Source: Sphaerolaimus hirsutus (taxonomy: Eukaryota; Nematoda; Chromadorea; Monhysterida; Sphaerolaimidae). Taken from it: 64,000 nt of DNA. The notes beneath the pieces are model-generated. The model saw only the letters and a program-made list of their open reading frames with translations. It was not told the origin of the DNA and searched no databases. Within the stretch, counting starts at the first letter, position 1. The number at the start of each line of letters is the position of its first letter. Position numbers and translations under genes: made by a program. The stretch lies in contig OZ038457.1 in assembly GCA_964036195.1 (NCBI GenBank), positions 20,177,147-20,241,146 of the forward strand. The letters are read 5' to 3'. Positions 17,596 through 55,761 of the stretch are shown piece by piece.

Positions 17596-20395
17596 ATGAA
17601 TGTTTTCAGTTGCCTAAAAGGTCATATGATGAAGTCCTAGAAGGAGACTCGCAGACAAGTGCGCCCAGTAAAAGTTTCATGAATGTATCGTCTTCCACTG
17701 GTCGGCAAACTATGGAGGTGGGGGAAAAGGTTTGTTCGTGGTTTTTGTGGTGACTCACGCAAAGTGTAAGATAGGGTGGTTAAGTAAGTGACAAATGAAC
17801 TTCAATGGTGAACCCCTGATACTTTTTCCATCAAAATTTAAAGATTTTGGCTTATTTCCAATTACCTGTTTTGTTAAATCTGGGACAAAAGATCCCTAGC
17901 TGCCTCAATTTGTACATTTTATTTGTTTAAACATTTTACTGTTATTTCTTTGGTAACACCCAAAATTGTAGATAAAACGCTTGTAGTTCAATCGATTTCT
18001 CTCAAAATTGTACTTGTCGTCTGACACTGTCACTGACAACGTGCGGGATCAGCACCCGTGTAGTGTTTTCCATGTTGCCCTCTATATCTGACATGGGTAA
18101 TCAATAAATAATAACAGACCATAATTTCATGTTACTCTCACTGGCATGTAACTACTAAAAAACAGACTTGGTGGCAGCCCGCACCCCGTAAAAAGTGTCA
18201 AATGTCATGTGAAAATTCAATTACAATATAAAAGTAAGGACTTCATTACTGAACATTTGCATGACATTCGACAAACTTGTATAACAATTTGCATGACATT
18301 TGACACCGGACTTAACACTTGACAGGGCGCGTAACTGTCCTCTCCATTCAACACTACATGTTACACTCTCAACCCCCTCCCCATTCCCCAGGTGGAGCAA
18401 GAGAGCGACGCGCGCGAATTGTGCGCCTTGCCGTCGCACGAGAAGCTCACGTGTCTGCGGTGCGCGCCGCTGGACGCGTCGGGCAGGCCGGCCGTGTACT
18501 CGGTCGACACGGGCATCGACACCAACGAGGGGTCGGGCAGCAGGACGTCCGACGGGGTCGCCGCCAAGGCTAGGGCTGATGAAGGGGGTGAGTACCTACG
18601 TGTATGCTCATTAGTGATGGAAAAGCGCCAGAAAAAGGGCGCCACACACCATGGCGCCATTCAGAAACTGGGCGCCATGGCGCCATTCGGAAAGTGGGCG
18701 CCAGGCGCCACGGAAAAAAAGGCGTCATGAAGCTTTTCAGAAAGTGGGCGCCAGGCGCTCAGAAAAAGGGCGCCAAGAGCCAATGGCGCCATGGCGCGGC
18801 GCCCTTTGGCGCTCTGAAATGGCGGCAGCGCCGTGGCGCTATTCCATCACTAATACTGATTGCGCTGTACACTATAAAAACACAGGGCTACCGTATTCTG
18901 GTGAATAATGTCATGTGAAAACACCTCACACAGCCGGAGGCGAGCAAGCTAGGTCGGCCAGGGACGACATCGTGCGGCGGGTGGCGCTGCGCCTAATCTG
19001 CACCATGGACGTGCGCACGAAGCACGCGCAACAGGCGCTCATCCGGCTGCGCGACCAGGTGCCAGTCCCAGACCATGTAAAATGCCCTGTAAAATGTCAA
19101 ATGTCATGCAAAGTGTCAAAAGTCATGTAAAATGCCCTGCAAAATGGCAACTCGCTTGCCATTTTGCGGGGCATTTTTCATGACTTTTGACACTTTGCAT
19201 GACATTTGAAATTTTACAGGGTCTGGGACTGCCCCCAGCACCCCTCCTGCATGTCCTCCTTGTGCCTGTTCAGCGACGCCTCGAACCTGCTCGCCTGCTT
19301 CGAGTTCACCTGCACGACCAGGCAGTTCATGCACGATTTCTTTGCGGACGTTGATTTCACTGAGGTCGGTGCACGTGGGCCTTTGCTCCGCTGTAAATTG
19401 TAAATTTGGGTGTTGAGTGAATTTACTGCTGTTTTAGCGAATTTGTCCACCGTATTACGCAAAACATCCACTGCACTTTTTGTGGGCTTCATGGCCTGAT
19501 GCGTCAGCGGTTTAGTGTATTTTCTGGCGGGGGATGATTTCGACACAGTTGTCGAATGAATTTTGCATGCGGCATATGTGGATAAGTAAATATTTACTTA
19601 TCACTTATATGGTCTAAGTTTACTTGTCATTTTTATGCCACTTTTCTTGTCACACGTGCACCCGCGGAATTGTTATCAGTGGGCTTCATCAGTTATATTA
19701 GTGAACTTTCGTTCATGATATTCAGTACGCAAAGATAGCTACCGTATTTCCTCGAAATACCCCCCCCCTCAAAATGGACACTATGAATTTATTAGCCCCC
19801 CTCGAAATACCCCTACCCCCAATTCACTGTAAACAGAACGTACGTGACAAACGCTACTGTTTGTGATCTGGACGATGCAGAACAGACGTTAAAAACAATG
19901 ACTGTGTTACGTTAGAACCTGTTTTACACCATCTACACACTTATGTAAGTCTAGACTCTATAACATGGTGCTTTCTGTTGCATTTTTCGACGTCAGCGTA
20001 CGTTACAAACCACATTTTAGTATGGGCGTTCAAAAAATTTCTGGCGGAATAATAAGCCCCCCTTGTATAACCCCCTCTCAAAATTCTCACTCTGAAACAA
20101 TCACCCCCGGGGGGTATTTCGAGGAAATACGGTATACATATTGCGCGCCCTCTACCAAAAGACTACCATTGAAACCATTGAGAAGGCGCATAAACCCAGC
20201 CCGCCCAAAACCCTAATTCAATGAATGTCAACTCAAACCCCGTCAACTCAGTTGTGGGAGGCACCGCGGCGCACGTTCAGCACCAGCTCCACTGGCGAAC
20301 TGGAATCTTCGCTATCAGCCTCGGAAAATGTCAAGCTGAGTGATGAGCCAGCGAAAATAATGGAGAAAATTCCATCAGCTGATATGGAGACCGAT
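17596..20395 (+). CDS. Unrecognised multi-exon gene, 3' set of exons
   Basis: Five exons join in one frame: 17596-17729, 18392-18587, 18934-19058, 19239-19364 and 20252-20395. Phases match at every join (0, 1, 0, 0). A further exon may lie at about 17438-17529, with its frame undecided. Recognisable pieces are a Ser/acidic linker (RSYDEVLEGDSQTS, VYSVDTGIDTNEGSGS), then a predicted helical, conserved-looking core (DDIVRRVALRLICTMDVRTK, RLRDQHPSCMSSLCLFSDAS, FEFTCTTRQFMHDFFADVDF), then a second Ser-rich acidic tail (LWEAPRRTFSTSSTGELESS) ending at METD before a GTATGA donor. The core reads like helical-repeat or regulatory-protein sequence, but I do not recognise the family. The final exon and stop were not found. 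The gene converges on the minus-strand TBC gene. Confidence 0.7.
18612..18852. mobile_element. GGCGCC-repeat MITE
   Basis: The ends read TAGTGATGGAAAAGCGCC and GGCGCTATTCCATCACTA. The interior is GGGCGCCA, GGCGCCATGGCGCC and similar units. This is the same family as 14672-14909 and lies in the intron between the exons at 18392 and 18934. Flanks ATGCTCAT and ATACTGAT are at best a degraded target duplication. Just upstream, 18175-18330 is a decayed hairpin of the introner type (GTGGCAGCCCGCACCCCG ... ACAGGGCGCG). Confidence 0.75.
19059..19238 (+). mobile_element. Introner C: hairpin transposon that is exactly an intron
   Basis: This 180 bp element begins GTGCCAGTCCCAGACC and ends GGTCTGGGACTGCCCC then CAG. 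CAG flanks both sides (GCGACCAG left, CCCCCAG right). Splicing CAG/GT ... CAG/CA joins RLRDQ to HPSCMSS with no frame change. The two arms of the hairpin (CAAAAGTCATGTAAAATGCC against CATTTTTCATGACTTTTGAC) and the ends are clearly homologous to introner A and to the ATP13A1 copies. Confidence 0.9.
19740..20133. mobile_element. MITE with CCGTATTTCCTCGAA ends
   Basis: The ends are TACCGTATTTCCTCGAA and TCGAGGAAATACGGTA, with C-rich tracts (ACCCCCCCCC type) next to the left end. Same family as 13425-13669 and 15311-15727. It lies in the intron between the exons at 19239 and 20252. Confidence 0.75.
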
Positions 20396-30895: not shown

Positions 30896-31526
30896 TCCGT
30901 TGACATTCAGGATGACTAAGGCAGGTCGAAAAATGAATAAGCTCAATTTACTTTTTTTGTAAAAAGTAACCGGTGACGAAAGATTGTCTGTCGCGGCGCG
31001 CAAGCGAGATTTTGATATGTAAATGTTGTATACATGAACGACGCACGGAAAGTTACATTGTTAGCATTGAAATCACGACACCTGCAACCCTTCCGCTGTT
31101 CGAAACAGGAGCTCGGTCAAATGCCTGAAATACGGTACGAGTGTGTTGCTCTCAAACGTGGTACTCCTTATAGAGACGTGGCAGTCGGCCAAAATTTTTG
31201 AAATCGCTATAAATATAGACAAAATTGGCTAAAAATAGGTAGATAGCTAGTATATAGACGAAAATAGCAATTATTTATGTGAAAATTGGTAAAAAAGAGA
31301 AACTTTTGGTGATTTTTAGCAGTTTTTTAGCAAAACTGCTTAAAACACAATACGCAACTCGTAACTTGGACATGTGCCAAGTTGTCATTAATGACCCGAA
31401 CTTGGTCGCTGAGCTGTATTCCTGCAATAGGTTATATTTGCTTTGCAAGCCGCTTCACAAGCCGCAAGCGCCTAACAACGCCATTTCTTTCCAGCCCCCA
31501 GAAACCCACCTCCCCCGTCGTCAAAA
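30896..31526. promoter_or_regulatory. Shared head-to-head intergenic region (left copy)
   Basis: The 631 bp between the start codons of the TBC1D2-like gene (minus) and the ATP13A1-like gene (plus) must hold the 5' regulatory sequence of both. The mirror region at 55132-55761 is 630 bp long and similar in sequence. No TATA box or other motif can be named with confidence. A CTTAG acceptor-like site lies 20-25 bp before the TBC start codon in both copies. Confidence 0.6.
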
Positions 31527-34500
31527 ATGGCCCTGGACTCCCTAGTGGACACCATCGATCTATACTTCAGCCGCCCGATAACCCTACACGTCTACTCGGC
31601 GCCCTACGCGGTGCTCTACGCGTTCTGGACTTACGCCTGGTGCCAGTCCCAGACCCTGTAGAATGCCCTGTAAAATGTGAAAAGTCATCTCAAGTGCCAA
31701 AAGTCATGTAAGATGCCCGGTAAAATGGCAAACGTGTTTGCCATTTTGCAGGGCATTTTACATGACTTTTGACATTTTGCATGACATTTGACATTTTACA
31801 GGGCATTTTACAGGGTCTGGGACTGCCCCCTGGCTGTTTATATTCGAGGGGAACGATGGCAAGAACGGGGAATTGGCCGTTGTGGGGTACCTTGTGCTGG
31901 CTGTTCTGCACGCGTTGTTGGCGCTGTGCTGCCATTGGTTTGTGAGATTGAGTGCGCTGCTCAATTGCAGGAGGGTTGGTGGGGTGGTTGGATTTGTTGT
32001 GGATTGGAATGGTTCGAGGATGTGTAGTATGAATAGTTCATGTAGTTATGGCCATCAAGGTAATATATTGCTGTGTATTAATGATGGCACTCGAGTTTTA
32101 AACAGAAAAATATCCAATAATTCCAACTATGTTTGGTAATTAACCAGGAATTTTGCAATTTTTATGTGTGTAACTTTGCAACTTTAACTACAAATTATTG
32201 GGGGTTGTCTTCAATGGGCTACTTCAAGTATATTTTTCCTTCTCTCTACCCCACTTTTGGGTCATCTAGTAAGTCTGTCCATTTTGAAAATAAATTTTAT
32301 AAACACAACAGCTTAAAAATGACTTTTTTTCCATCCTTACTCTGAAAAGTATGTTTGGGCCACGGTAATTTTTCACTTACTTTTATCGCGCGATGTTTTT
32401 TTGTACCACCTTGTTTCGTTCAGGTGGCAGATCCCTCAAATGCAAATTATGCGCTCGTGCAGCCCACGCCAAATAATGGCTCATCAGAATTTGTACCAAT
32501 CAAACGCGCAACTGTGAGTTTTCATTTATTTATGCATTAGACAACCAGAGTTCTTGAAAGTACCGAACTTTTTTCAAAGTATGCGTATGCGTAAAGTATC
32601 TTGTTTTTACTCACCCCCAAGTACAGAAAGCGTAAAGTAAAAATTACTTAATTTTACTCGCGAGTAAATGAGAGTAAAATACTTTTTTTCTCAGAATGCG
32701 TAAATGCGAGTTTTCTGTTCTCAGGAAAGGATAAAAGCGAGTAAAATTACGTTTTATTTCTGGAAAAAGCATAATGAATGTTTAACCTGGACAACAAGAA
32801 GGGTTTTTTCTATGAATATGTATTCTTTATGAAAAGCCGGAGTGTCGGATGGAAAAAATACTCTTTCTGTACTCGTAAAAAATTACTCTACTGTACTCGA
32901 GTATTCTCAAGAAGTAAGCGTACAGGCGATAGATAGTTTTTCTCAAACTGTGCGTATGCGTATTTACTCGGTACTCGAGTATGCATACTTTTTGAGTAAA
33001 AGTAAATACTCATTAACAACTGTGTGACAACTAATGATTTTTTATCGCACGTGAATGACATTCTTTACCTCAATATCCCCTTTCATCTCACAGGATTTGG
33101 ACAATAGTTTGCGATATTACCTAGAGTTCCAGAAAGTTCTCTACAATATCGAAATATGCGCAGAGTCGAACAAAATTCTATACAAGTGCATTGTGTTTCC
33201 AGTGACGGAAACACTCGAATACTACAGCAGCACGAGGGGCATAGAAACTGAAGATGCGTTGCGATATTCGAGGCGGAAATATGGAAACAATAGGTAACGT
33301 GAGCTTTGGATGTATATTATTGTGTGATGTATTGAACCTTGGACCAGTTCCACAAGCGGACAAGTGAAACTCCTAGAATCAGGAAAATACCCTGTAAAAT
33401 GTGATATGTCATGCAAGTGTCAAAGGTCATGTAAAATTTCAAATGACCGGTAAAAAAAATTAAAAAAAATTTTACATGACTTTTGACACTTTGAGTGATA
33501 TTTGAGATTTTATAGGGTCTGGGAGTGGTCCCAGATGTGGTAACCAGTAGTTTTAAGTAATTTATTAAATAATAGACCGTGTTACTTGACTTATAACTAC
33601 TTACGATTTAAAAAATTGCGGAATCGACCCCTGAACCTGAATAGGTTTTGGAGTTCCGGAAACAGTTATCTGACTGTTTCACACTGGTCCTTAGCACTAT
33701 CTAAAAATGCAATCCCTTTTTTCAGGATGGAAATGTACCTACCAACATTCCAAGAGCTATTCTTAGAGCGCGCCACGGCGCCATTTTTCGTCTTTCAAGT
33801 GTTCACCGTGGCACTGTGGTGTCTGGATGAAATGTGGTACTACTCCTTGTTCACCCTGTTCATGTTGGTGGTGTTCGAGGCGACGCTGGTTAAGCAGCAG
33901 ATGAGAAACATGGCCGAGATTAGGAATATGGGCAATAAGCCAACTACGATCAGCGTCTGTTTTGTTTGTTTTGTTCGTCATTTGGGTCTTGAGATAAATC
34001 ATGCTTTTACGCGTCGATATATTTTTTTGCAGGTTTATCGCAATAAGCGATGGACGAAATTGTCGACAGAGGAGCTAATTCCCGGCGACCTTGTGTCTAT
34101 TTGTCAGTTTTTTTTAGTTGATTGTTAAAATCCGCTCCATACCGTATCGGAGTCAGCATAAATGTGTCGTAAATAGCTCCTAAATGCACTACGCGCTAGT
34201 TTACTATCGAAATTTCAACAAAAAAATCATAAATCAGCTTTTTACTCATTTGAGTTTACCAGAAAGTCCATTTTCAATCACCGTCAACCGTCCATTTCAT
34301 AACAGCGCGCAGCAAGGAAGATGCCAATGTTCCATGCGACCTTCTGCTGTTGCGAGGCTCGTGCATTGTCGAAGAGTCTATGCTCACCGGCGAATCTGTG
34401 CCCCAGTTGAAGGTTGATTTGTTTGCATATCAATGTGGGGTTATTGGGGAAACTTTTTTTAAAGATCCGTTTTCAACAGAATATCATAGGCAATAAAAAC

Positions 34501-37500
34501 ATTAACTATCTAATTTGGAGGTGAAAAAGTATGAAAAGTAGCGATTTTGAGTAGGGTTCAAACGATATGACTTTTCGATATCGATATTCGATATTCGATA
34601 TTTTTTTCTGAAACTCGATATTCGATATCGATACGATATGGAACCTCGATATCGATATTCGATATTCGATATTAAAAAATGGTCGATATTCGATATTCGA
34701 TATTTCGATATTTTCGATATTCGATATTGCGATTTGCTTTTGGTATAGCAAGGCATATTTCAAGTGACATATTGTATTTTCATGTGGTTGCACGCATGGT
34801 TAATCATCTCTTTAGTTAAATGTGAATAGTACAAGTGATTTTAACAAGGTTTACATCACTCAAAAGTAGAACATGTAGAAAAAAAACATGATGAATCAAT
34901 GTGTATCAGACAAATAACAATTGGTAGATATTACAGTTTATACTGATAACCTGATTGCTAAGGGCATGTTGCAAAAAATAGAATATCAGCATTTTCTGGC
35001 TTCAAATTTAGCACTCCAACAAAAATGACATTTTAAGTACTGTACTTTTACTAATAATAATTCTAATACAATTCTCAGATCAGATCAAGCACATCAGATC
35101 AATCATAAATATCTCAAAATGAAAATAATAACTTTTTTTGGGACACAATATAGGTTCGATATATCGAAAAAATGGTCGATATTCGATATCGATATTCGAT
35201 ATTGTTTCAAAATTTTCGATATCGATATTCGATATTCGATATTAAAAAATGGTCGATATCCGATATTCGATATTCGATACGATATATCGTTTGAACCCTA
35301 ATTTTGAGTGAATGTATGGAAAAATTTCTCAAAAATCGCTCCAGATAGATAGCTGGGCGATTGGGGAAGGGTGGAGGGTTCAGGGGGTAGTAGCCAAAAA
35401 TTTGCCCTTTCGTAACCCTGTGCCCAATGCCAATTAACCTTTTTTCACTGTTCCTTTCAGGAGCCGCTGGAAGAATTGTCAGCGGGCGAAATGTCTCAGC
35501 GTCGATTGGACTTGGAATCGGATGGACGATTGAGAGTGATATTCGGAGGGACCAAAGTAGTGCAGCACACGCCGCCAGCCAAGCAGGGGCCCGGTGTGAA
35601 AAGTGAGTATTGATTGAGGATGGCCGGCGTTTTTAAACGCCTTTAAAACAATCAGCGTCTAGGCCGTCTTTTTAAAAAAAGACTATCAGCATCTGGACCT
35701 AAATAATCATTTAAAAAGTCCTAAATAGTATTGTTGATAAAATTTTATGTTGGGAAGTTCTGGCACGAAATTTAGGTGGCCTTTAACTTGTTTCCTGCTG
35801 CCATGAAAACCACAGTGAACCTGAAAAAGTATAATTTCTCATTGAATACATGACACGCTGAATTCTACTTTTTGCCGCCTTAATTTTACACATAAACCCT
35901 CAAATTCCCAAATTGCCTCCAAATTCACTTCTCCAATAACCCCCCCCCCAAATCAGGCCCCGACAACGGGTGCATCTGTTACGTGCTGCGCACTGGCTTC
36001 AGCACGGCCCAGGGCCGCCTACTGCGCACCATAATGTTCGGCGTGAAGCGCGTCACCGCCAACAACTTGGAGACTTTCGCGTTTATCATGTTTCTGCTCG
36101 TATTTGCCGTGGCCGCTAGCGGTTATGTGTGGATGAAAGGTGAGCGAGTTTTGATGATGTTGATTCTGATATTGGGGTGTGGGGGTCTCCGGATGACCAT
36201 TGAAACGTTTTTAAAGCCTTATTTAAAAAAAACGTTTTTGATTTTTTTTAAACCAGGTCATTGAAAAAACAACGTTTTTCATCCCTATTAGGGTGACATT
36301 GAATTTCAAATTCCCGCGTGTTTCCAGGCACAGAAGACCCCCGGCGCAGCAGGTACAAGCTGTTGCTCGAGTGCACGCTCATCTTGACATCCGTCGTGCC
36401 GCCCGAGCTGCCCATCGAGCTGTCTTTGGCGGTCAACAATTCTCTTTTGGCGCTGAGTAAACTGGGTGCGTTTGACGATGCCATTCATCGCGTGTTTGGG
36501 CTCATATAACTTATTAAATTGCGTCCGTAGGCGTCTACTGCACTGAACCGTTCCGCATCCCGTTCGCTGGCAAAGTGGACGTGTGCTGCTTCGACAAGAC
36601 CGGCACGCTGACCACCGACAATCTGGTGGTCGAGGGCGTCGCCCAGTGCATGTTGGCCAATTTCACTTCACCATTCTTGAATAACCCCCCACGAAATAGC
36701 CTCGCGTCTGAGTGAGCTTTGGAAAGAAAATCCCCATCGTATAAGACCTCACAGAAGTTCCCCTCGAATAAGCCCCCTCCCCTGAATTAGGTAACCCCCC
36801 TCAAAATTGGCTGGCGAAATAATACCCCCTGAGTGTATTACGATGAAATACAGTACAAAATTCACCCTCCATCACAGTCCAAAAATCGAGGTCAATAAGA
36901 AAAAAACGCAAAAATCTCAGCGACGATCCCGACAGCACATGCGAGGTGCAATCGCTCAGCGACGCGCCGGGCTGGGCGACGCGCGTCTTGGTTTCGTGCC
37001 ACAGTTTGGCCTGTCTTGAGGGCAGGGAACTGGTGGGCGACCCCTTGGAGAAGGCTTGCTTGAAGGCTACTGACTGGACACTGACGAAAAGTTTGTGGAA
37101 GGTTTTTTGTCGTGTTTTTTGTTAATGTTTGTGAATTTCGCAGAGAATATCGAACCCCCCACCCCCGCCCCCTCAAATTTTTTTGCTATCTATCCTTCCG
37201 GAGGAGCGACTTGCCATCTATCCAACTCCCGGACGGTCAAAATCCATGACCCTTGAACGTCACATTTATCCCAAAATTAAAACTTCCCTCAGATGACGCC
37301 GTAATGCCGCCGAAATCGGCGCCAAAAACCATGGTGCCCATAAAAATCCTGCACCGGCACCATTTCTCGTCGGCGCTGCGACGCATGTGCGTCATTGGCG
37401 CGTGCCAGCGGACGGACGGCAGCGGCACAAAGGTGGAACACTTTTGTGCAGTTAAAGGGGCCCCAGAGACTATTTGCGCTATGGTGGGTTTGGGGGTTTG

Positions 37501-40500
37501 AAGTTGGGGGTTTGATTGTCTAGGTTCTGTCAGGATAGGATGATTTGATTTTCTAGACGAGGTGTTTGAACGAAGTTTGAATGATTTTCAGCGGTGTAAA
37601 GGCTAGCATTTTTAATATTCACCAATTTTTCAGAAAATTTATCTATAAAAATATTAGTAAAAGACCACCCTCTAAAAATATATAAATGAACCTTTTCAGC
37701 TTATAAAAATGTATGAAACAAATCACCAAAATTCACCAACAAATCACAAACTAAATAATCTCCTTTTCAAATTAACTTTGCAGAAAAGCTTTACCTTTGG
37801 ATGTCTGCTAGACGCATCGACTTTTCTCATTCACGTTTTATCTTTGATTTTTGCACTTTTTATGTCTTTTTCGAGATTTCCATCTAAAAAAGCCACCAAC
37901 TCTACACAGCTCGACTCACCACCCGAAAACTACTCAACCACCTACGAGCAATTGTCGCGCCGCGGCGCCAGGGTCTTAGCGCTGGCTCACAAATCTCTGG
38001 GCGAGCTAACTTCATCCGATATCAGACAGCTGCCGCGGGAAAAGTTGGAGAGTGGGCTTGAATTCGCCGGCTTTGCGGTCATTGGCTGTCCCCTGAAAAG
38101 CGATTCGAAGATGGTTATTAGGGAGATTGTTGATGCTAGTCATAAGGTTCGTTTTGAGGTGTGAACTAAACTACTTTTTGGGCCGCGTGCTTCATGAGGA
38201 ATGATATTTACCATGTTTCCATAAAAAAGAAAGTCACTTGATAAATAGTGAACGATATTTGCCGATATCAGTGTAATGTTGTGAGAGAAAATTATTGTTT
38301 CCATTTTGTGGTTATGGTTATGGTAAATATGGTTTGTTATGGTAGTAGTTCGCGATAAAGTGTGCGGCTGTCTAATTTAGTTTTGTGTCCTGGTGGCTGC
38401 CCCGCACCCTGTAAAGTACAACCCTTCACATACCATGTAAAATGTCAACGAAATCTCCCAGTAAAATCTTTTTATACAATATAAATCTTTAAGCTGCGTT
38501 TACACTGACACGTGTGACGACAAAAATTTTTTTGGGCTTTCAACTTTCGTTATGTGACGAAAATTGAATATTTGTTGTGTCAGATACCTAGATCTCGATC
38601 ACTCTTTTTGCCTAGGACAAACATAAATTTTTATATATGACGTGATCATACACAATAAAACAAACAAGAAAATTTGTCGTCACAAGTTGTCGGTTCGAGT
38701 TGTTCCCGGGAGCCTCGTTAACGAGGCTCCCGGGAACAACTCGAACCGACAACCTGTGACGACAAAAATTTTGTTTCGTTTTATTGTGTATGATAACGTC
38801 ATATATAAAAATTTATGTTTGTCCTAGGCAGAAAGAGTGATCGAGATCTAGGTGTCTGACACAACAATTATTCAATTTTCGTGACATAAAGAAAGTTGAA
38901 AGCCCAAAAAGTTTTTGTCGTCACACGTGTCAGTGTAAACGCCGCTTTAATAAAATGTTAAACACTTTACAGGGTGCGGGACTGCCCACTGGCAAAATTC
39001 CTAGCAAAATTTTCCACCTTTTCCAGGTTGTGATGATCACTGGCGACAACGCGCTCACCGCATGCCACGTGGCAAAGTCCCTGCGTTTCACTTCCAGTCC
39101 CCATTCCTTAATTCTTGAATCGAATGGTTCATTTGTCATTTTGGCTATTTTATGTCGATTTTCGATTAATTTTTGAATTCTTGCACATTTCAGACGGCAT
39201 GTGGCGTTCGGTGGACGGCACCGTCAAGGTTCACTGCGACGACGTGTTCAATAAAAGCGACAATGCGAAGCGTTTTCTTGAGGAATATGATCTCTGCCTC
39301 ACTGGGCCGGTTGGATATTTTTCCCCCTTCTCACCACTAGCATTGAAAAATGGGTCATTTTTGGAAAATTTAATAAAATCTCTCTAAGAAAAGCCGGAAA
39401 ATTTATAATTAAATATTAATAAAAAAAAATTTCTGATATTTTTACAAAATCTCAGAAAATCACTTATAATATAATTAAACCATAAATCAGGGATCAAAAC
39501 GAGGGAAAAAATATTAAATTTTTTATTTTCTGATATTTTTAATATAATTCTCCAATCGATTGTTCAACACTTTTTCAAAAAAAATTTCACCTCCAAAAGT
39601 CACAGTATCGTTCAACACCCCCACTCCAGGGCCTGACCTACCTAATGGACACGTGGCGGCCAGTTCTATGGCGGATCCTGCCGCGCGTGCGCGTCTATGC
39701 TCGCATGGCGCCCAAGCAGAAAGAGTGGGTGGTGACCGAGCTGCGCGCGCTCGGCGAGACCACGCTCATGTGCGGCGACGGCACCAACGACGTGGGCGCG
39801 TTGAAACACGCGCACGTGGGTCGGTGTTGGGGGCGGGTTTGTGGACACCAGCGCTGGATGTGAACTGTCGATTCGATTTTAGCTCAATTTTGGTCGCAGG
39901 GCAATTTTCAAGTGCACATGCGGCAATGTCAAAAAGGAATCGATCTCCAGGAGGACAATTTATATGTGCATTTGCACCTGGTTTCGCAACTATTTACAAT
40001 CATATAGTGTCGGCCCAGTTGACATCGGTTTTCATCTGATGCCAACTGGGCCGACTGGTTTCCGTTAAGATTTTAGTTGATGGGTTGCAGAACCGTGTTC
40101 AAATGTAGATGGCAATATTAATTTGTGTTCGACATTGCCGCTTGTGTACTGGAAAAATTCTCATAAAAACTACCTAAATTGAACTCAAATCGAGTTGACA
40201 CTGAAACCAGTTGACATCCAGTGTGTATGTGCGTGGCGCTATTTGGCGTGCTTTTGTCTGGTTGCTATCTTGTTATAGTGTTGACTGCATTTATTTACGT
40301 ATTTTTATCGCAGGCGTGGCGCTGCTGTCGCACCCCGCCCCCTCGCAGGACCAGGCGAGCGGCGACGCCACTGCACCGGTTTCCTTGCCCGCGTCACCCA
40401 CCCTCCCCGGTCCCAACGCAGGTTAGATTCATTTTTAGATTCATTGTGTCTTTTTAGTGCATGCAATTAGTGAGTGTTTTTAGGTAGCGTTTTGTCGTCG

Positions 40501-41851
40501 CGAGTGGAGCAAATGCGCGAACAACTGCGTCGGCTGGACAACGCACAGGCTGCAAGAGGTGTGAACACGCAGAATGCCGCTAGGGTGAGTAGTTTGGGCT
40601 TATCAGTGTCGGTTTAGTCTCCTAAATTTTGATAGCGATGTGTATTAGATTTGAAAAAACGCCACTTTTTGACATAAATTGACATTTTCAACAAAAAATA
40701 ATAATTAGTGAGTCTTGACGAAGCTCTTGTAAAAAATAACCCTTCTTCAAAAAGCTCCCCCTCTTCTAGCAATTAAATTACTGCCAAGGGGGACTTATTA
40801 ACACTTAAGTAGATTCCTTTCAACTGCATAATAATAGCTGAATGCTCAGAATCGCATGGAAAAAATGCTGGCTGACTTGGAGCAAGAAGAGCGCGCGCAG
40901 ATTGTCAGATTGGGCGACGCGTCGATCGCAGCACCGTTTACCTCGAGGTTTTCGTCCATCATGTCCAGTGCGTTTTTCGTCACATTTTTTTGAAATCGAT
41001 TTCATTTTTTTAAATATTAATTTCAATTTTTTTTTTAAAAATCTATGCCATTCGCAGTTTGCCACGTGATCAAACAAGGTCGATGCACACTTGTCACAAC
41101 TTTGCAAATGTTCAAGATTCTCGCTTTGAACGCACTGATTCTGGCATATAGCCAGAGTGTTCTGTACTTGGATGGGATCAAGTTTAGCGATACACAAGCT
41201 ACTTTGCAAGGACTTTTGTTGGCTGGGTGCTTTCTGTTCATCTCATGGTCAAAAGTGGGTGCCATTTTTGTGAAATGCACAATTATTGTGCAGTGAATCG
41301 AAAATCGGACCAGTATTTACAACCTCATATTTTTCAGCCCTTGAAAACGTTGTCGCGCCAGCGACCACTGAGTAACATATTCAACGTGTACACTGTGGCC
41401 ACTGTCACTAGTCAGTTTGCGGTACATTTGTTCTGTTTGGTACATTTGACGCAGCACGCGCACTTGGCAGCCAGCCAATACCCAGAGATTGATGCTACTG
41501 CTTTGAAGGAGTATAGGTGGGAACTGGGATGGTGGTTTCATCGATCATTTGCTAGAGTGATTCAATCCATATCAACATATTTTTGCCTCACCTTTTATCT
41601 ATTCCTCGATTTGCAGATTATCCCAGGGTCACAATTTGACCGCGGCCGTAATAAATAGCACCACTTCTATGGATTTTAATAACCAAACTGACATTAACGG
41701 GACTCTATCTTTGGAAAACGCCACTGCCAGTGGAAATGTCACGCAGTGGGTGGATGTTTTGGAGGAGAAATTCAGACCGACCATACTCAACACAGTTGTC
41801 TACATTATCAGTATGGCCACCCAAGTGGCTACATTTGCAGTCAATTATAGA
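31527..41851 (+). CDS. ATP13A1: P5A-type ATPase (ATP13A1/Spf1-like), left copy, exons 1-23
   Basis: ER transmembrane-helix dislocase of the P5A family, which pulls mis-targeted membrane proteins out of the ER. Exons: 31527-31639, 31833-31974, 32424-32513, 33094-33293, 33726-33954, 34033-34102, 34306-34412, 35461-35602, 35957-36139, 36328-36465, 36531-36645, 36921-37090, 37293-37483, 37910-38146, 39027-39126, 39194-39309, 39630-39819, 40314-40421, 40484-40584, 40850-40967, 41058-41254, 41338-41516, 41617-41851; together 1157 codons, all open. Motifs: TGES (309-312), PPELP of M4 (450-454), DKTGTLT with phosphorylated Asp 493, KGAPE (621-625), TGDN (714-717), GDGTND (830-835). Odd points: AHVG instead of the usual ADVG after the hinge motif, a sequon-rich loop in exon 23, and intron 1 being a transposon. 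The last exons are missing because the contig ends in a repeat. Confidence 0.95.
31640..31832 (+). mobile_element. Introner in ATP13A1 intron 1, with GT...CTG ends (left copy)
   Basis: The 193 bp region begins GTGCCAGTCCCAGACCC and ends GGTCTGGGACTGCCCC then CTG. CTG flanks both sides. Exact excision joins TAC-GCC-TG to G-CTG-TTT ([10 protein letters not shown]), the frame needed for the first membrane segments. No combination of a GT donor and AG acceptor nearby keeps frame: all usable GTs are phase 2 and the only late AG (ACAG before GGTCTGG) needs phase 1. The right copy (54826-55018) has the same CTG end. Confidence 0.85.
32543..33028. mobile_element. MITE with GAGTAAA/ACTCGAGTA repeats in ATP13A1 intron 3
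   Basis: It begins near CAGAGTTCTTGAAAGTACC and ends near ATACTCATTAACAACTGTG, flanked by GACAAC on both sides. The interior is dominated by TACTCGCGAGTAAA and ACTCGAGTATTC type repeats. The counterpart lies at about 53413-53910 in the right arm, so it predates the split of the copies. Open frames in it are repeat artefacts. Confidence 0.65.
33366..33535. mobile_element. Introner-family hairpin inside ATP13A1 intron 4
   Basis: ACCCTGTAAAATGTGATATG, GGTCATGTAAAAT, TTTACATGACTTTTGACAC and TAGGGTCTGGGAGTGG are introner-family sequences, but the copy lies within a longer intron rather than defining it. It is shared with the right arm (about 52920-53075). Confidence 0.7.
34552..35300. mobile_element. 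hAT-type MITE with TCGATATTCGATA repeats (left arm only)
   Basis: The ends are TAGGGTTCAAACGATAT ... ATATCGTTTGAACCCTA, with the 8-bp duplication ATTTTGAG at 34544-34551 and 35301-35308. Both subterminal regions consist of ATATCGATATTCGATATTCG-like repeats. It is inserted in a CTATCTATC-type element in ATP13A1 intron 7. The right arm has that host element without this insertion. Confidence 0.92.
38389..38990. mobile_element. Introner-type ends in ATP13A1 intron 14, split by a palindromic element
   Basis: The left end CTG-GTGGCTGCCCCGCACCC and right end GGGTGCGGGACTGCCCA-CTG are variant introner termini with a CTG duplication. The inner part is displaced by the 456 bp palindrome at 38492-38947. 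In the right arm the matching region lacks the palindrome and is instead cut by a CTATCTATC-type element at 47471-47968. Confidence 0.7.
38492..38947. mobile_element. ~456 bp near-perfect palindrome (fold-back MITE), left arm only
   Basis: The arms mirror each other from GCGTTTACACTGACACGTGT to ACACGTGTCAGTGTAAACGC. The centre is between 38719 and 38720, in GAGCCTCGTTAACGAGGCTC. Only scattered mismatches and small indels separate the arms, and almost no loop remains. It is absent from the same intron of the right copy. Confidence 0.9.
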
Positions 41852-42079
41852 GTTAGTGATGCTGTTTTGTTATATTTATGTAAAATATAAAAAATCTAGA
41901 TTTGGTGGTATCTAAGGGTATTTTAGATTTGGCATGATGGCATTTGACAAATTTGTGACATTTTTGCATTTTCACCCGATTTTACAGTGTGCGTGACTCA
42001 GTGTGGTCACATTTGGTGCGTTACTTTTTACACGTATATGCGGCACTCTTGTGCTTAAAATTACCCACTATGTCCTTTA

Positions 42080-42558
42080 CACGGGTATCTTGAATTTTGA
42101 CCCTCCGAGTGGTTGGATAGATAGCAAATCGCTCCTCCGGAGGGATAGATAGCTGAAAAATTTTCTGGGGGGGTTTGGGGGGGGTTGTGGTGGTTCGATA
42201 TATAGGCCTTTTCGGGGCATAGAAGCAAGAAAAGGGAGATAAATCGCTAAAAGTAGGTGTAAAATAGCTCAAAATGGGTATACAAGAGCATATAGTACTT
42301 AAAATAGCTGAAAATAGGCAGTTAGACGCATGAACCAGTGATTTTGGAGGTGAAAATCTATATAAATATAGGTATGAAAAATAGCGATTTTGAGCGAAAA
42401 TTGGGGTATAGTTTCTGAAAAATCGCTCCAGATAGGTAGATAGCTGAGCGATTTGGGGGGGGGTTTAGGGGGTAGTAGCCCAAAATTTTGCCTCCGGGAT
42501 AGATAGATAGCTGAGCGGCCTCCGGGATAGATAGATAGCTGGGCGGTTTGGGCCCCCC
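42080..42558. mobile_element. CTATCTATC-type hAT element running into the gap
   Basis: It begins CACGGGTATCTTGAATTTTG (consensus end CAGGGGTATC) right where the left and right arms stop matching (GTCCTTTA at 42072-42079). It contains GGATAGATAGCTG and TATATAGGCCTTTTC landmarks and ends in a G-rich tract at the N run. The contig therefore ended in a dispersed repeat, which explains the missing ATP13A1 exons 24-25 in the left copy. Confidence 0.8.
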
Positions 42559-42758: not shown

Positions 42759-45700
42759 TGTCCAGTATCAAACACGCAGTCGCGTCGATGGCCAGCACGG
42801 TGAGCACGGTGCGGCGCAACTGAAAAAAATGGGGGGGGTTGGAGGGGGGTTGGGGGGAAGTGTGTTGGAGGGGGGTTGGGGGTGTTGGGGGGTGTTGGGG
42901 TTGGGGGGTGTTGGGTGGGGGGTGATTACAGAATTTTGGCGACCGAAATTAACATCACTTATGTAGTGTTAAATGTAATTTGCACAATTTACGATTGATT
43001 TGTGATGCCGATGACAAAAGTCCAAAGACAAAAAACTGTCCAAAATTCCAATTCCAAAGTTTTAGTTCGTAGTTATTCCAATTTATGAATATCGATTAAT
43101 ATTCTTACCCAATTTATAGAAGAAAAATTGGCCGACAATACAATTTGCCAGGAACTGCTGCCTATACTACTGAATACTGATTTACAAACCATGAAGTATT
43201 TAAAGATTTTGCATGTGATTATCTTGCAGAACAACTACAAAAGTTACACTTTTTGTCAAGCGACTGACATGTAAAATGCCTTGTAAAATGGAAAACTTCG
43301 TTTTACATGACTATTGACAAGTGCTATTTTACATGACTTTTGACAAGGTCTGGGAGTACCCCGCCGGCTCAATCTCACCCAGAACCGACCTCAGAAGGCA
43401 GTGGCACCAACTCGAACTGAGTACACAATTCGCCGTTGTCGCCGGCGCAGGCGAGCAGCGCCACCCAGCCCGCGCTCGCCATGATCGTGTACAGCAGCGG
43501 ACGATTTTCCGTTAGACCCTCCATGAATGGCCGGCCCTGAGTGTGTGAATAGAAGGTAGATAAATCGTGCAACTAAATGAGAAAGAATGTGAGGGACATA
43601 TGGAGTAATTTTAAGCACAATGTGTGTCGGATATATTTACGTGTAAAAAGTAATGCACCAAATGTGGCCAGTCACGCACACTGTAAAATAGGGTGAAAAT
43701 GCACAAAAAGTCACAAATTTGTCAAATGCCATCATGTAAAATCTAAAATACCCTAAGATACCACCAAATCTAGATTTTTTTATATTTTACATAAATATAA
43801 CAAAACAGCATCACTAACTCTATAATTGACTGCAAATGTGGCCACTTGGGTGGCCATACTGATAATGTAGACAACTGTGTTGAGTATGGTAGGTCTGAAT
43901 TTCTCCTCCAAAACATCGACCCACTGCGTGACATTTCCACTGGCAGTGGCGTTTTCCAATGCTAGAGTCCCGTTAATGTCAGTTTGGTTATTAAAATCCA
44001 TAGAAGTGGTGCTATTTACTACGGCCGCGGTCAAGTTGTGACCCTGGGATAATCTGCAAATCGAGGAATAGATAAAAGGTGAGGCAAAAAAACGTTGTTA
44101 TGGATTGAATCACTCTATTCCGATTAAACCACCAGTCCCAGTTCCCACCTATACTCCTTCAAAGCAGTAGCATCAATCTCTGGGTATTGGCTGGCTGCCA
44201 AGTGCGCGTGCTGCGTCAAATGTACCAAACAGAACAAGTGTACCGCAAACTGACTAGTGACAGTGGCCACAGTGTACACGTTGAATATGTTACTCAGTGG
44301 TCGCTGGCGCGACAACGTTTTCAGGGGCTGAAAAATAAGAGGTCGTAAATACTGGTCCGATTTTCGATTCACTGCACAATAATAGTGCATTTCAAAAAAA
44401 TGGCACCCACTTTTGACCATGAGATGAACAGAAAGCACCCAGCCAACAAAAGTCCTTGCAAAGTAGCTTGTGTATCGCTAAACTTGATCCCATCCAAGTA
44501 CAGAACACTCTGGCTATATGCCAGAATCAGTGCGTTCAAAGCGAGAATCTTGAACATTTGCAAAGTTGTGACAAGTGTGCATCGACCTTGTTTGATCACG
44601 TGGCAAACTGCGAATGACATAGGTTGAAAAAATAAATTTGAACTTAAAATCGAAAAAAATGAAAATGATTTCAAAAAAGTGACGAAAAACGCACTGGACA
44701 TGATGGACGAAAACCTTGAGGTAAACGGTGCTGCGATCGACGCGTCGCCCAGTCTGACAATCTGCGCGCGCTCTTCTTGCTCCAAATCAGCCAGCATTTT
44801 TTCCATGCGATTCTGAGCATTGACCCATTTTAGTGCAGTTGAAATGAATCCAGTTCAACTTGAATAAGGCCCCACACACGCTAGTTGACATCGACACCAA
44901 ATGTCAACTGGTTCCGTTCCCAATTCAAAGCATGCGTTTGAACGTCGATCGTCGGCTCGGCAGCAAGCTTTGAATCGGGATCGGCACCAGTTGACATTTG
45001 GTGTCGATGTCAACTAGCGGGTGGGGGCCCTAAGTCCCTATGGCAGTGATTAGGGTTCAAACGGGATCCCGATCCCGATCCCGGATCCCGTGAAATTCCG
45101 GGATTTACCAGTCCCGATCGCGATCCCGAAACCCCAATCCCGATCCCGATCCCGATCCCGAAATCTCAAAAATACCAATCCCGATCCCGAAAGTTTTCAA
45201 ATCCCGATCCCGATCCCGAGAAACTCCCAAGTTCGGGATCCCGATCCCGGAAAAATTAGTGGAAATTATAAAAAGTGAAATAATGACGTTTTTGCATGCA
45301 AAAAAGTGGATGCAAACCCCCAGCGTCAATTTTATGCCACTTTTCTGGCATCCAACAGTGTTTTGAGACCTTTATGAACAACTGTGAATGCCAGACAAAT
45401 GGCCAAAATCTCTATCCTTAGAACCCAATCCCGATCCCGGAAAAATGCCTATCCCAATCCCGCATCCGATCCCGTGACCCCAATCCCGGCCAATCCCGAA
45501 ATCTCAAAAAACCAATCCCGATCCCGAAACCCCAATCCCGATCCCGAAATCTCAAAAAGTGAATCCCGATCCCGATCCCGATCCCGAAAAGTCAATCCCG
45601 TTTGAACCCTAGCAGTGATTTTATTAGAAGAGGGGAGCGTTTTGAAGAAGGGTTATATTTACAAGAGCTTCGTCAAAATCCACTACCCAATAGTTTTTTT

Positions 45701-48700
45701 TGCAAAAACAAAACAGCAGGAAATGGACCTCAAAGGGAATTGAACAGTGGGATCTCAAACAACTATTGGACAAATGTCAGTTTATGGCAGATATGAGCGT
45801 TTTTTTCAAATCGACTACACAGGGACATAACTATTTATGGGGACTTACTCAAACTGACACCCATAACTCAAACTACTCACCCTAGCAGCATTCTGCGTGT
45901 TCACACCTCTGGCCGCCTGGGCGTTGTCCAGCCGACGCAGTTGTTCACGCATTTGTTCCACCCGCGACGACAAAACGCTACCTGAACACTCACTAATTGC
46001 GCGAAAAATAGCCACACAATTAATTAAAGTATATAAAATGTCTCGAACCTGCGTTCGGACCGGGAAGGGTGGGTGATGCGGGCAAAGAAACTGGTGCAGT
46101 AGCGTCGCCGCTCGCCTGGTCCTGCGATGGGGCGGGGTGCGACAGCAGCGCCACGCCTGCGACAGAAATACATAATTTTACACAGTTGGCACTATAATTA
46201 AATAGCAGCGAGCAGGGGTAGGAAAGGGGGAGTGTAACCCCCACCAAAAACCGCCCAGCTATTTATCTATCCCGGAGGCAAATTTTTTTGCCTACTATCT
46301 CCTGACCAGTTAATGTGCTTCATTGCCTATTTTCAGCTATTTTTCACCTATATTTAGCGACTTCCCTCCCTTTTTTGCCTTGAAAAAGCCAATATATTGA
46401 ACCCCCGCGAACCTCCAAAAAATTCAACTATCTAAACTCCCGGAGGGTCAAAATGAAGAATACCCCTGGCAGCGAGCCAAAAGCGCGCCAAATCCACCCC
46501 CAACACCGACCCACGTGCGCGTGTTTCAACGCGCCCACGTCGTTGGTGCCGTCGCCGCACATGAGCGTGGTCTCGCCGAGCGCGCGCAGCTCGGTCACGA
46601 CCCACTCTTTCTGCTTGGGCGCCATGCGGGCGTAGACGCGCACGCGCGGCAGGATGCGCCATAGAACTGGCCGCCACGTGTCCATTAGGTAGGTCAGGCC
46701 CTGGAGTGAGGGTGGAGTAGGTGTTGGAGGTATGCTGTTTCGTTTGGAGGTGAGATTTAGTAGTATTGAAAACATAATATATCAGAGATTTATATGAAAA
46801 AATTTATTCTATAATAAATAGAGTATAAGTATAAAATTTATTCTATAAAATATTTTATACTCTTTTTTCCCTTTATTATAGAGATGTAATCATATTTTAA
46901 GTGATTTTCTGAGATGTTTAAATATATCAGAAAATAAAAATATCCTATTACGTTTTATTTTTTCGGCTTTTCTTACAGAGATTAAATTATATTTTATTCT
47001 TTAGAGGTTTTCTGAGATTATATTCAATTATGTTTTCCCAAAATCACCCATTTTTCAGTGCTAAATTGTGTTCATGAGGGGGGAAATAGATCTAACCGGT
47101 CCAGTTAGACAGAGATCATATTCCTCGAGGAAACGCTTCGCACTGTCGCTTTTATTGAACACGTCGTCGCAGTGCACCTTGACTGTGCCGTCTACCGAAC
47201 ACCACATGCCGTCTGAAAAAGTGAAAAAATTCAAAATTTATCGAGTATCGACAATAAATAGTCAAAATAACAAACGTACCATTTGATTCAAGAATTAAGG
47301 AATGAGGGCTGGAAGTGAAACGCAGGGACTTGGCCACGTGGCACGCGGTCAACGCGTTGTCGCCAGTGATCATCACAACCTGCATAAAAGTGGAAAATGT
47401 TGTGAGGACAGAGGTGCCAGGACACAAAACTATACTCTACTGGGGAAATCCTGAGCAGTGTAGTAAAGTGCAAGGGTCTCCTAGGGGGGGGGGAGGCTGG
47501 GGGGGCTGCCCCCCCCTAGGAGACCCCTGCACTTTCTATCTATCCCGGAGGCCGCTCAGCTATCTATCTATCCCGAGGCAAAATTTTTGGCTACTACCCC
47601 CAAAGACCCCCCCCCCCAAATCGCTCAGCTATCTATCTATCTGGAGTGGTTTTTGAGAAATTTTGCCCCAATTTTCGCTCAAAATCACCAATTTTCGCAC
47701 TTTTTTATAGTTTTTCATCTTTAAAATCGTGCTTTCCGGCTATATACATGGTTATATACCTATTTTTATCCATTTTATACCTACTTTTGGCTACTTTTAA
47801 CTGATTCTTGACGATTTTTTCTCCTTTCTACCTTCTTAACCTTGAAAAAGCCTATATATTGTGCCCCCGCCAGCCCCCCCAGAAAAATTTTTCAGCTATC
47901 TATCCCTCCGGAGGAGCGATTTGCTATCTATCCAGCCCCCGCGAGGGCCAAAATCCTGGAGACCCCTGGTAAAGTGTAAAGTCACGTGTCAAATGTCATG
48001 TAGAATGTCAATAAGGACAAAACGAAAAGACTTTATTAATGAACTTTCTATAACAATTGACACTTTAACATTGACACATTTGTCTCTACCATAACCCATC
48101 GCCAAAAAAATCTCTCACCACATGGGCTGATATCGGTGAATTTAGTTCACAATTGATCACGTGACTTTCTCCACGAAAAGATATGCGTAGCATTCCATGT
48201 GAAGCACGCGCTCCAATCAGCTCACACCTTAAAACAAACCTTATGACTAGCATCAACAATCTCCCTAATAACCATCTTCGAATCGCTTTTCAGGGGACAG
48301 CCAATGACCGCAAAACCGGCAAATTCAAGCCCACTCTCCAACTTTTCACGCGGCAGCTGTCTGATATCGGATGAAGTTAGCTCGCCCAGAGATTTGTGAG
48401 CGAGCGCTAAGACCCTGGCGCCGCGGCGCGACAATTGCTCGTAGGTGGTTGAGTAGTTTTCGGGTGGTGAGTCGAGCTGTGTAGAGTTGGTGGCTTTTTT
48501 AGATGGAAATCTCGAAAAAGACATAAAAAGTGCAAAAATCAAAGATAAAACGTGAATGAGAAAAGTCGATGCGTCTAGCAGACATCCAAAGGTAAAGCTT
48601 TTCTGCAAATTTAATTTTAAAAGAATATTTTTTAGTTTTGGGTTTTTTTCTCAGTGTTTCATACATTTTTTTAAGCTGAAAAGGTTCATATATATATTTT

Positions 48701-54700: not shown

Positions 54701-55131
54701 GCGCACTCAATCTCACAAACCAATGGCAGCACAGCGCCAACAACGCGTGCAGAACGGCCAGCACCAAGTACCCCACAACGGCCAGCTCCCCGTTCTTGCC
54801 ATCGTTCCCCTCGAATATAAACAGCCAGGGGGCAGTCCCAGACCTTGTAAAATGCCCTGTAGAATGTCAATTGTCATGTAAAGTGTCAAAAGTCATGTAA
54901 AATGCCCGGTAAAATGGCAAACACGTTTGCCATTTTACCGGGAATCTTACATGACTTTTGACACTTTGCATGACATTTAACATTTTACAGGGGATTTTAC
55001 AGGGTCTGGGACTGGCACCAGGCGTAAGTCCAGCACGCGTACAGCACCGCGTAGGGCGCTGAGTATACGTGTAAAGTGATCGGACGGCTGAAGTATAGAT
55101 CGATGGTGTCCACAAGGTCGTCCAGGGCCAT
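42759..55131 (-). CDS. ATP13A1: P5A-type ATPase (ATP13A1/Spf1-like), right copy, near complete
   Basis: Exons from the start: 55131-55019, 54825-54684, 54024-53935, 53354-53155, 52716-52488, 52409-52340, 52135-52029, 50916-50775, 50456-50274, 50033-49896, 49830-49716, 49453-49284, 49081-48891, 48476-48240, 47379-47280, 47212-47097, 46700-46511, 46156-46049, 45981-45881, 44812-44695, 44607-44411, 44327-44149, 44053-43819, 43536-43390, then 42819-42759 cut by the gap. About 1226 codons are visible, close to the ~1200 typical of the family, so only the last few residues are missing. Exons 24-25 add [20 protein letters not shown] and [20 protein letters not shown], the last membrane segments. All 23 shared exons have identical lengths to the left copy, and the catalytic motifs, the AHVG change and the sequon-rich loop are the same. 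Functional reading as for the left copy. Confidence 0.95.
42825..42930 (+). other. G-rich tract, potential G-quadruplex, beside the gap
   Basis: About 100 bp of GGGGGGTTGGAGGGGGGTTG-like and GGGGTGTTGGGGTTGGGG-like sequence on the plus strand, inside ATP13A1 intron 24 of the right copy. Many runs of four or more G could form quadruplexes. Such tracts commonly stop sequencing and may explain why the contig ends nearby. Confidence 0.8.
43255..43365. mobile_element. Decayed introner-family hairpin, ATP13A1 intron 24
   Basis: ATGTAAAATGCCTTGTAAAA, TTTTACATGACTTTTGACAA and GGTCTGGGAGTACCCC match the introner family, but the left end is lost. It sits about 25 bp from exon 24 (43390-43536). Confidence 0.65.
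44866..45031. mobile_element. Fold-back MITE with GGCCCCACACACGCTAGTTG ends, right arm
   Basis: The left end GGCCCCACACACGCTAGTTG is mirrored by the right end CAACTAGCGGGTGGGGGCC. ACATCGACACCAAATGTC is mirrored by GACATTTGGTGTCGATGT. It lies in ATP13A1 intron 19 and is absent from the much shorter left intron 19 (40585-40849). Confidence 0.8.
45051..45611. mobile_element. hAT-type MITE with CCCGATCC repeats (right arm only)
   Basis: The ends are TAGGGTTCAAACGGGATCCC ... CGGGTTTGAACCCTA-like termini with the perfect 8-bp duplication GCAGTGAT (45043-45050 and 45612-45619). Subterminal arrays are CCCGATCCCGATCCCG repeats; the centre is a ~150 bp unique core. It lies in ATP13A1 intron 19 of the right copy; the left copy has no such element there. 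Confidence 0.93.
47471..47968. mobile_element. CTATCTATC-type hAT element in ATP13A1 intron 14 (right arm only)
   Basis: The ends are CAAGGGTCTCC ... GGAGACCCCTG with the perfect 8-bp duplication GTAAAGTG (47463-47470 and 47969-47976). The interior carries the family landmarks TCAGCTATCTATCTATCCCG, TTGGCTACTACCCCC and CCTCCGGAGGAGCG. The left 60 bp fold back on themselves around a G/C-tract. It interrupts an introner-family element. Confidence 0.9.
51173..51720. mobile_element. hAT-type MITE with CCCGATCC repeats (second copy, right arm only)
   Basis: Near-identical to 45051-45611, with its own 8-bp duplication ACTATGTG (51165-51172 and 51721-51728). It is nested in the CTATCTATC-type element of ATP13A1 intron 7, at a different position from the left arm's TCGATA element. 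The strong similarity of the two GATCCC copies indicates recent spread. Confidence 0.93.
54826..55018 (-). mobile_element. Introner in ATP13A1 intron 1 with GT...CTG ends (right copy)
   Basis: Mirror of 31640-31832 and the same length (193 bp). On the coding strand it runs from GTGCCAGTCCCAGACCC to GACTGCCCC-CTG, with CTG on both sides. Exact removal again gives [10 protein letters not shown]. The in-element stop codons and the phase of all other GT/AG pairs rule out a simple canonical alternative here too. Confidence 0.85.
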
Positions 55132-55761
55132 TTTTGGACGTGAAGATGGATGTCTGGAGGGGCTGGAAAGAAATGGCGTTGTTTAGGCGGCAGAAGCGGC
55201 TGGCAAAGGAAATACACCCATTCCAGGAAGACAGCTCAGAGACCACGATCGCGGAAACCTCTTATGTGAAGTTGGCAGCTCGCATACACAGTTTTAGGAT
55301 ACATCCATTCGTATACCGTCGAGTTGGCACATACCAGTTGACACAGACCAGTTCACATACATGTGTCATCTAGTGCATAGGGCACCATTTCCGGTCGTTT
55401 AATCGCATTCCGCGGCCATTGTCGGTATATGCGGGACAAAACATAATAATACCTTACGGTATCCAATATAAACTTGGACGTGAGCCAGTTCCGAATACCT
55501 GCCCCGATCCGGAGTAACATACTCGTACTTTATTTCAGGCATTTGACCGAGCTCCTGGTTCGAACAGCGGAAGGGCCGCAAGTATCGTTATTTTCATGCT
55601 AGCAATGTAACTAGCCATGCGCCATTCATGTATACAGCATAAACATATCAAAATCTCGCTGCGCTTGCGCGCCGCGGCAGAAAATCTTTCGTCACCGTTT
55701 ACTTTTTAGAAAAAATAAATTGAGATTTTTTTGTCCTGGCCTTAGTCATCCCGAGTGCCAA
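55132..55761. promoter_or_regulatory. Shared head-to-head intergenic region (right copy)
   Basis: 630 bp between the ATP13A1-like start (minus) and the TBC1D2-like start (plus), the mirror of 30896-31526. A CTTAG site just before the TBC start codon is conserved, but the sequence between that site and the ATG differs by four bases from the left copy, which argues that it is untranslated. Confidence 0.6.

Follow-up and report, generated by a model that had tools for sequence, protein, structure and literature searches.

Hairpin transposon copies inserted at CTG sites as candidate GT-TG introns in conserved genes of an animal genome

A palindromic insert in two facing copies of ATP13A1

The window, by which we mean the whole 64,000-nucleotide stretch of contig OZ038457.1 that was analysed, contains a large inverted duplication (about 31000-42100 on the plus strand and 43600-55700 on the minus strand) in which two copies of the P5A ATPase gene ATP13A1 face each other. 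The P5A identity comes from a downstream exon, which matches solved P5A ATPases in the PDB. Exon 1 of the first copy is interrupted by a 193-bp insert at 31640-31832, a palindromic MITE with a CTG on either side, whose body between the two CTG duplications reads GTGCCAGTCCCAG...CTGGGACTGCCCC. Several blocks of repeated arrays, with a tandem unit of 160 bp and another unit of 327 bp, lie elsewhere in the window (370-12181). The features at and around the insert are as follows, each with its basis.

31527..31639, plus strand: exon 1 of copy 1 of ATP13A1 (P5A ATPase), starting at the ATG and ending with the first CTG (translation, paralogue comparison)
31637..31639, plus strand: 5' copy of the target site duplication, CTG, kept in the exon (sequence)
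31640..31832, plus strand: putative intron, GTGCCAGTCCC...GGGACTGCCCC followed by CTG, with ends GT...TG (sequence, genome pattern count, splice-pair scan)
31644..31825, plus strand: near-perfect hairpin, the terminal inverted repeats covering nearly the entire element (folding)
31830..31832, plus strand: 3' copy of the target site duplication, CTG in place of the expected AG (sequence)
31833..31978, plus strand: exon 2 of ATP13A1 copy 1 (translation; 3' end placed by eye from the reading frame)
33955..34032, plus strand: ordinary ATP13A1 intron, GTCTG...TTTTTTTGCAG, GT-AG with a U-rich 3' end (boundaries hand-read against the P5A exon)
54826..55018, minus strand: counterpart GT...TG element in copy 2 of ATP13A1 (identical to that of copy 1 at 177 of 193 bases)
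55019..55131, minus strand: exon 1 of ATP13A1 copy 2 (translation, paralogue comparison)

Over 182 bases the element is a nearly perfect inverted repeat, and the segment 31636-31836 folds as a single long hairpin at -136 kcal/mol, compared with -53 +/- 4.6 kcal/mol for shuffled sequences (z = -18). A preliminary description of this DNA had reported that the insert is flanked by CTG rather than CAG and that the intron would consequently end GT...TG, and the sequence bears this out. It had also held that the N-terminus of the protein requires exact excision. Removing precisely 31640-31832 reopens the ATP13A1 frame, and when we paired every GT at 31560-31719 with every AG ending at 31745-31934, none of the GT/AG pairs in that range restored the full protein. 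The accompanying statement that no nearby GT/AG pair keeps the frame was too broad, as four pairs are in frame and free of stops, but these delete 15, 20, 22 or 27 residues around a membrane segment. Sliding the boundaries within the duplicated CTG yields CT...CC, TG...CC, GG...CT or GT...TG, and TG...GG with one further base, but never GT...AG.

The second copy of the gene, on the minus strand, has the identical insertion site and the identical CTG duplication, in agreement with the earlier claim that both copies share the insert. The two copies were compared over the 83 joined codons: 13 nucleotide differences are synonymous, and three more fall in two replaced codons. With so few replacements, both sides of the junction look constrained. 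The two genes had further been called otherwise intact, and in the part of the genes that was compared many downstream exons do align in frame. The motif GDGTNDVG is present in both copies, and DKTGT in copy 1, the one whose letters are printed in the exon alignment. The joined N-terminus of ATP13A1 matched none of the PDB chains, even at E<=1. We therefore dropped ATP13A1 as sole proof, and the argument rests on other genes.

Orientation and coding context of the element family

We surveyed the genome (348 Mb) for elements with the same exact ends and 142-172 bases between them. This identified 642 copies, among which the flanking duplications were CAG/CAG in 230, CTG/CTG in 120, and CAG at the 5' end with CTG at the 3' end in 23. 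The reversed control pattern for CTG/CTG occurred nowhere in the genome, as against the 120 real copies. In a sample from one contig taken regardless of duplication (n = 28), 10 copies were CTG/CTG and 9 were CAG/CAG, so that 19 of 28 carried a matching CWG. About a third of the copies with an intact CWG duplication (120/350) thus offer TG instead of AG. As expected of introners, similar copies occur at many genic sites and carry a target duplication and inverted repeats. Measured against a U2-type GT-AG intron, the CTG copies have the 5' GT, beginning GTGCC, and lack the 3' AG. Of the 11 positions at an end, an average of 10.5-10.8 are paired with the other end, a value owed in part to the requirement for exact ends.

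Several observations on the family are recorded here. Two further copies in the window, at 13961-14156 and 19059-19238, have CAG duplications and readable joined flanks (e.g. ALIRLRDQ/HPSCMSS), which makes them candidate GT-AG introners. The 23 copies with a 5' CAG and a 3' CTG look as if a GT-AG introner had lost its AG; one of them, L029, appears to be coding in the sense direction, and an antisense frame one base away scores about equally. At L049 two exact-ended elements, one CTG/CTG and one CAG/CTG, lie about 1.2 kb apart (1504-1692 and 2897-3085). A second subfamily begins GTGCCAGTCCCAAGCCCTGTAAAGTGTAAAG and has its own internal sequence, and its ends are those of the main family.

The coding potential of the flanks was scored with a codon model trained on this genome, using 120 bases on each side of the element, both strands and all frames. 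For CTG the sample was 90 of 100 listed copies, of the 120 genome-wide, and 88 were distinct after removal of duplicates; for CAG it was 43 of the 230 copies, 42 of them distinct. Ten copies with other or mismatched duplications were excluded from the coding counts. The joined flanks scored above 25 as a single coding exon in 29/88 CTG copies, and all 29 were in the sense orientation relative to the element, the one that gives GT...TG. In 26 of these the CTG is a whole leucine codon, and in three it lies in another phase. Above the same threshold were 17/42 CAG copies, 14 sense and 3 antisense. The three antisense calls lie in GC-rich stretches where the best sense frame is within 5 units, and one of these loci (L033) shows LDMCAAPGGKT in sense.

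The bias in orientation held when the criteria were varied. With a looser cut of 15, the counts were 42 sense and 1 antisense for CTG and 20 sense and 4 antisense for CAG; the single antisense CTG copy among these 43 scored 17.8 in antisense against 15.7 in sense. Requiring a score above 25 and a margin over 10 left 25 sense and no antisense CTG copies, and 11 sense and no antisense CAG copies. When the flanks were scored singly, 36 CTG copies were coding-like on both sides, and the 30 in which the two sides agreed in strand and frame were all sense. The corresponding numbers for CAG were 24 and 12, again all sense; the disagreement in frame or strand of the other 12/24 CAG copies indicates that GC-rich sequence makes the coding model noisy. 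Among the sense copies scoring above 15 there is no junction between the first and second bases of a codon, a position at which the codon model expects sites to be rare (0.6-0.9% per codon) but not absent.

Displacing the join by 1, 2, 4, 5, -1 or -2 bases reduced the number of CTG copies above 25 from 29 to 11-14, and that of CAG copies from 17 to 10-11, though not to zero. Agreement in frame between flanks shows by itself only that an element lies in what was once a coding exon, and we therefore place the weight on orientation and on conserved genes. There are four combinations of orientation and target (GT...AG, GT...TG, GG...AG and GG...TG), of which just the two beginning with GT clearly occur in coding exons. 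A reading of the CTG copies as antisense GG...AG introns was discarded, being represented by 0/29 copies above 25 and 1/43 above 15. The share of copies that are coding in sense is equal for the two duplications, 29/88 for CTG and 14/42 for CAG (Fisher p = 1). Whether the element ends in AG or TG has no detectable effect on the share of copies in coding exons, whereas the GT matters. From these sequence patterns, the 5' GT looks obligatory for these elements and the 3' AG dispensable. A hand estimate per available target, based on the codon model and expressed relative to non-coding copies, has CTG elements kept in exons roughly 0.4 times as often as CAG elements; this rough figure may reflect mild selection, with removal less efficient for CTG copies.

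Conserved genes split by CTG elements

The CTG elements are placed exactly, in frame and in the sense orientation within conserved genes. In CNOT9, at G000:C1:10595875-10596052, the protein across the junction aligns without a gap over 90 residues to a solved CNOT9 chain (9jnl_A), the CTG encoding the leucine of GVIGAL/VKTDEQ, and the joined frame matches the Pfam family Rcd1 at E = 1e-98. A protein search of the genome with CNOT9 found this locus only. Of the 120 listed protein matches to CNOT9, the closest is 87% identical, and in a midpoint-rooted CNOT9 tree the animal groups with nematode sequences (support 100/97) on a long branch. The alignments that span the junction are likewise gapless in the PP2A scaffold PP2A-A, over 82 residues, and in PKG, over 70 residues.

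The 42 sense CTG copies scoring above 15 supplied 21 of the 23 junction proteins, all of which were picked by eye for apparent conservation, and two (L052 and L063) came from below that cut; because of this choice their hit rate is not an unbiased one. When the 20 proteins other than CNOT9, PP2A-A and PKG were compared with Pfam, 11 scored above the family cut-off with matches running through or into the junction. In 7/11 the protein and the profile cover equal spans over the join (Mito_carr, SpoU, IRK, M18, Sugar_tr, adh_short and Sec23_helical), the match reaching over only the last 3 residues before the join in Mito_carr and the last 7 in SpoU. The spans are unequal in the other 4/11, by one residue in Laminin_N and Xan_ur_permease, by 3 in SDF and by 5 in the protein kinase. 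Eight of the 20 had no Pfam match at E<=0.01, and one had TPR matches below the cut-off only. Two short junction pieces (GPCR and kinase) had Pfam matches below the cut-off.

Some genes are named here from their sequence, namely those that we take to be EFTUD2-like, SLC25A3-like, TARBP1-like, GLUT and guanylyl cyclase; Pfam gives the domain only. For the EFTUD2-like piece Pfam gave no match. By eye, the gene that this CTG element interrupts resembles the spliceosomal GTPase EFTUD2/Snu114 (L052, noted together with G000:C1:20026704 and C13:19279023), and partial matches lie elsewhere in the genome.

An alternative first exon that joins exon 2 was discarded as a general explanation, as interruptions inside CNOT9, PP2A-A, PKG and a laminin N-terminal domain cannot arise in this way. 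The conservation of the proteins, the single CNOT9 locus and the orientation of the elements together suggest that CTG elements are removed exactly. The comparison of CTG with CAG copies that had been proposed in the preliminary description thus finds CTG copies splitting conserved exons exactly, in the GT-first orientation and with a coding share equal to that of CAG copies. Among the three explanations offered there for ATP13A1 (a non-AG acceptor, a separate mechanism of precise removal, or unusual processing of intron 1), this genome survey favours the non-AG acceptor.

A proposed TG acceptor and the alternatives to it

The best explanation, to which we assign a probability of about 0.72, is that the elements are removed by the spliceosome, which would use the GT donor and a TG acceptor provided by the CTG duplication, with the hairpin aiding. 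The element would be a non-autonomous DNA transposon (MITE) whose 5' end provides the GT donor and whose target duplication provides the last three bases of the intron. Its transposase would insert at CWG, so that a sense insertion at CAG creates a GT-AG intron and a sense insertion at CTG a GT-TG intron. Both types would be cut exactly from the pre-mRNA, most likely by the spliceosome acting through the GT. Internal AGs would be masked by the long hairpin, which would also keep the TG end close to the donor and so permit the second step without an AG, and the stem may present the first exposed bases after it as the acceptor. We infer in this scheme that removal takes place in RNA, that it is the work of the spliceosome and that it uses the hairpin. 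A stronger version appears to us evenly balanced between true and false: that the spliceosome of this animal demands a 5' GT while the transposon hairpin, and not an AG, constitutively defines the 3' splice site, even in the single-copy CNOT9, giving GT-TG introns by the dozen.

Introners, copies of non-autonomous DNA transposons that have become introns in many genes, are described by Gozashti et al. 2022 (PMC9860276); they share with the element here a target duplication, inverted repeats, and the origin of one splice site in the element and of the other in the duplication. Whereas introners as described there recruit splice sites from the duplication, 120/350 copies here offer TG and nevertheless sit in conserved exons. 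The NuwaI group of PHIS (PIF/Harbinger-like) transposons, found mainly in animals, makes 3-bp CWG target duplications (PMC4482050), and our element shares this mark. If its transposase treats both targets alike, CAG and CTG insertions differ only in the dinucleotide that ends the putative intron.

Introns with unusual ends are on record in other organisms. In the animal Fritillaria a large number of introns break the GT/AG rule, often bearing YAY triplets at their two ends, and a U2-type spliceosome is required for them (PMC13326754). The commonest classes described for this animal are AG/AC and AG/AT, and its U2AF subunits are duplicated, whereas the putative introns here retain the GT and depart from the rule at the 3' AG only. 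Introner elements of Amoebophrya, a dinoflagellate parasite, have direct repeats at their boundaries, inverted repeats that form a hairpin and many non-canonical ends (PMC7789003). In that account the inverted repeats measure 8-20 nt and the ends vary; here there is one family with a full-length hairpin, in which AG or TG results according to whether the CWG target has A or T. At the level of titles and abstracts, the literature searched, which included few subscription papers and no preprints, reported no transposon-made GT-TG introns, a weak negative.

Splicing without a 3' AG in C. elegans reportedly concerned single mutant introns, whereas the candidates here are natural and repeated in many genes. 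The C. elegans case is that of Aroian et al. 1993. TG alternative 3' splice sites are known from human U2-type introns (Szafranski et al. 2007, PMC2374985), where they were concluded to depend on a neighbouring AG within a limit of 28 nt and to be incapable of constitutive function. Here the TG would be the sole acceptor. An AG occurs within 28 nt downstream of the junction in 21/29 CTG copies and in 14/14 CAG copies (p = 0.04), against a coding background of 81%; the 8/29 CTG loci that have none do not conform to a human-type TG-AG tandem acceptor. We accordingly abandoned reliance on a downstream AG, which is not enriched after the TG and is, if anything, farther off than after CAG copies.

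The evidence on the hairpin is mixed. Arm covariation, which in non-coding copies equals or exceeds that in coding ones, was dropped as proof that the hairpin is under selection. Coding CTG copies fold slightly more stably than non-coding CTG copies (p = 0.012), but not more stably than coding CAG copies (p = 0.35). With covariation no stronger in coding copies and stability not above that of coding CAG copies, these comparisons give no evidence of selection on the stem for splicing. The other splice signals of the element are poor: it has a weak donor (GTGCCA) and lacks both a U-rich tract and a terminal AG, in contrast with the ordinary ATP13A1 intron (33955-34032), which is GT-AG, U-rich and ends TTTTTTTGCAG.

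A serious rival, although an unlikely one, is suggested by SOS splicing (Zhao et al. 2026, as reviewed in PMC13247085), a defence in which DNA transposons are removed from animal mRNA through excision by unknown nucleases and ligation by RTCB. In both cases a DNA transposon is removed from animal mRNA, which for our elements is what the sequence suggests; the elements here differ from the process described in PMC13247085 in being orientation-dependent and exact. Under this rival the hairpin would trigger cleavage and RTCB ligation independently of the spliceosome, and the GT would be incidental. It gains from the almost perfect 182-base inverted repeat of the element, from the poverty of its splice signals apart from the GT, and from the grouping of the animal with nematodes, in which SOS splicing is found. 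Inverted repeats in mRNA are the trigger of SOS splicing, which also needs AKAP17A and CAAP1 and appears independent of orientation and splice sites. A mechanism that recognises structure alone should presumably ignore orientation, yet the strict counts were 25 sense to 0 antisense for CTG and 11 to 0 for CAG, and removal exact to the base in several genes is unexpected of an emergency repair. Purely structural, orientation-blind removal is thus disfavoured.

We consider it less probable again that CTG copies are spliced to downstream AGs or retained, leaving genes damaged or proteins shortened. Such AGs do lie within 28 bases in 21/29 cases and are sometimes in frame, as in CNOT9 (15 and 18 bases downstream), and per target CTG copies may be somewhat depleted. 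Against this, AG is not enriched downstream of the TG, the use of such sites would delete conserved residues of CNOT9, PKG and PP2A-A, and CNOT9 shows no second locus in the genome. The coding CTG elements are, moreover, about 7.5% (median) diverged from the family consensus with their flanks still open, and do not look like fresh insertions or lesions.

Removal of the elements from somatic DNA, in the style of internal eliminated sequences, so that the mRNA never contains them, seems to us very improbable. Elimination mediated by a transposase would give precise excision leaving one target copy, but it leaves the orientation bias and the 5' GT unexplained, and to our knowledge no system of this type exists in animals of this kind. 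Least probable is an intron bounded elsewhere within the short repeat (e.g. CT...CC or TG...CC): sliding yields the same mRNA, which alone cannot place the junction within the duplicated CTG, but no slid pair is GT-AG, and the importance of orientation is best accounted for by GT...TG.

The 3' AG is among the most rigid rules of splicing. Spliceosomal use of a TG acceptor would make these transposon insertions a natural experiment on 3' splice sites, with AG set against TG in hundreds of otherwise matched elements of one genome, and the CTG loci separate spliceosomal removal from excision of the SOS type. The matched pairs would allow one to ask what sets a 3' splice site, whether AG, structure or distance. 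The finding, if true, would also bear on how new introns survive and on whether real genes are missed or broken when such genomes are annotated.
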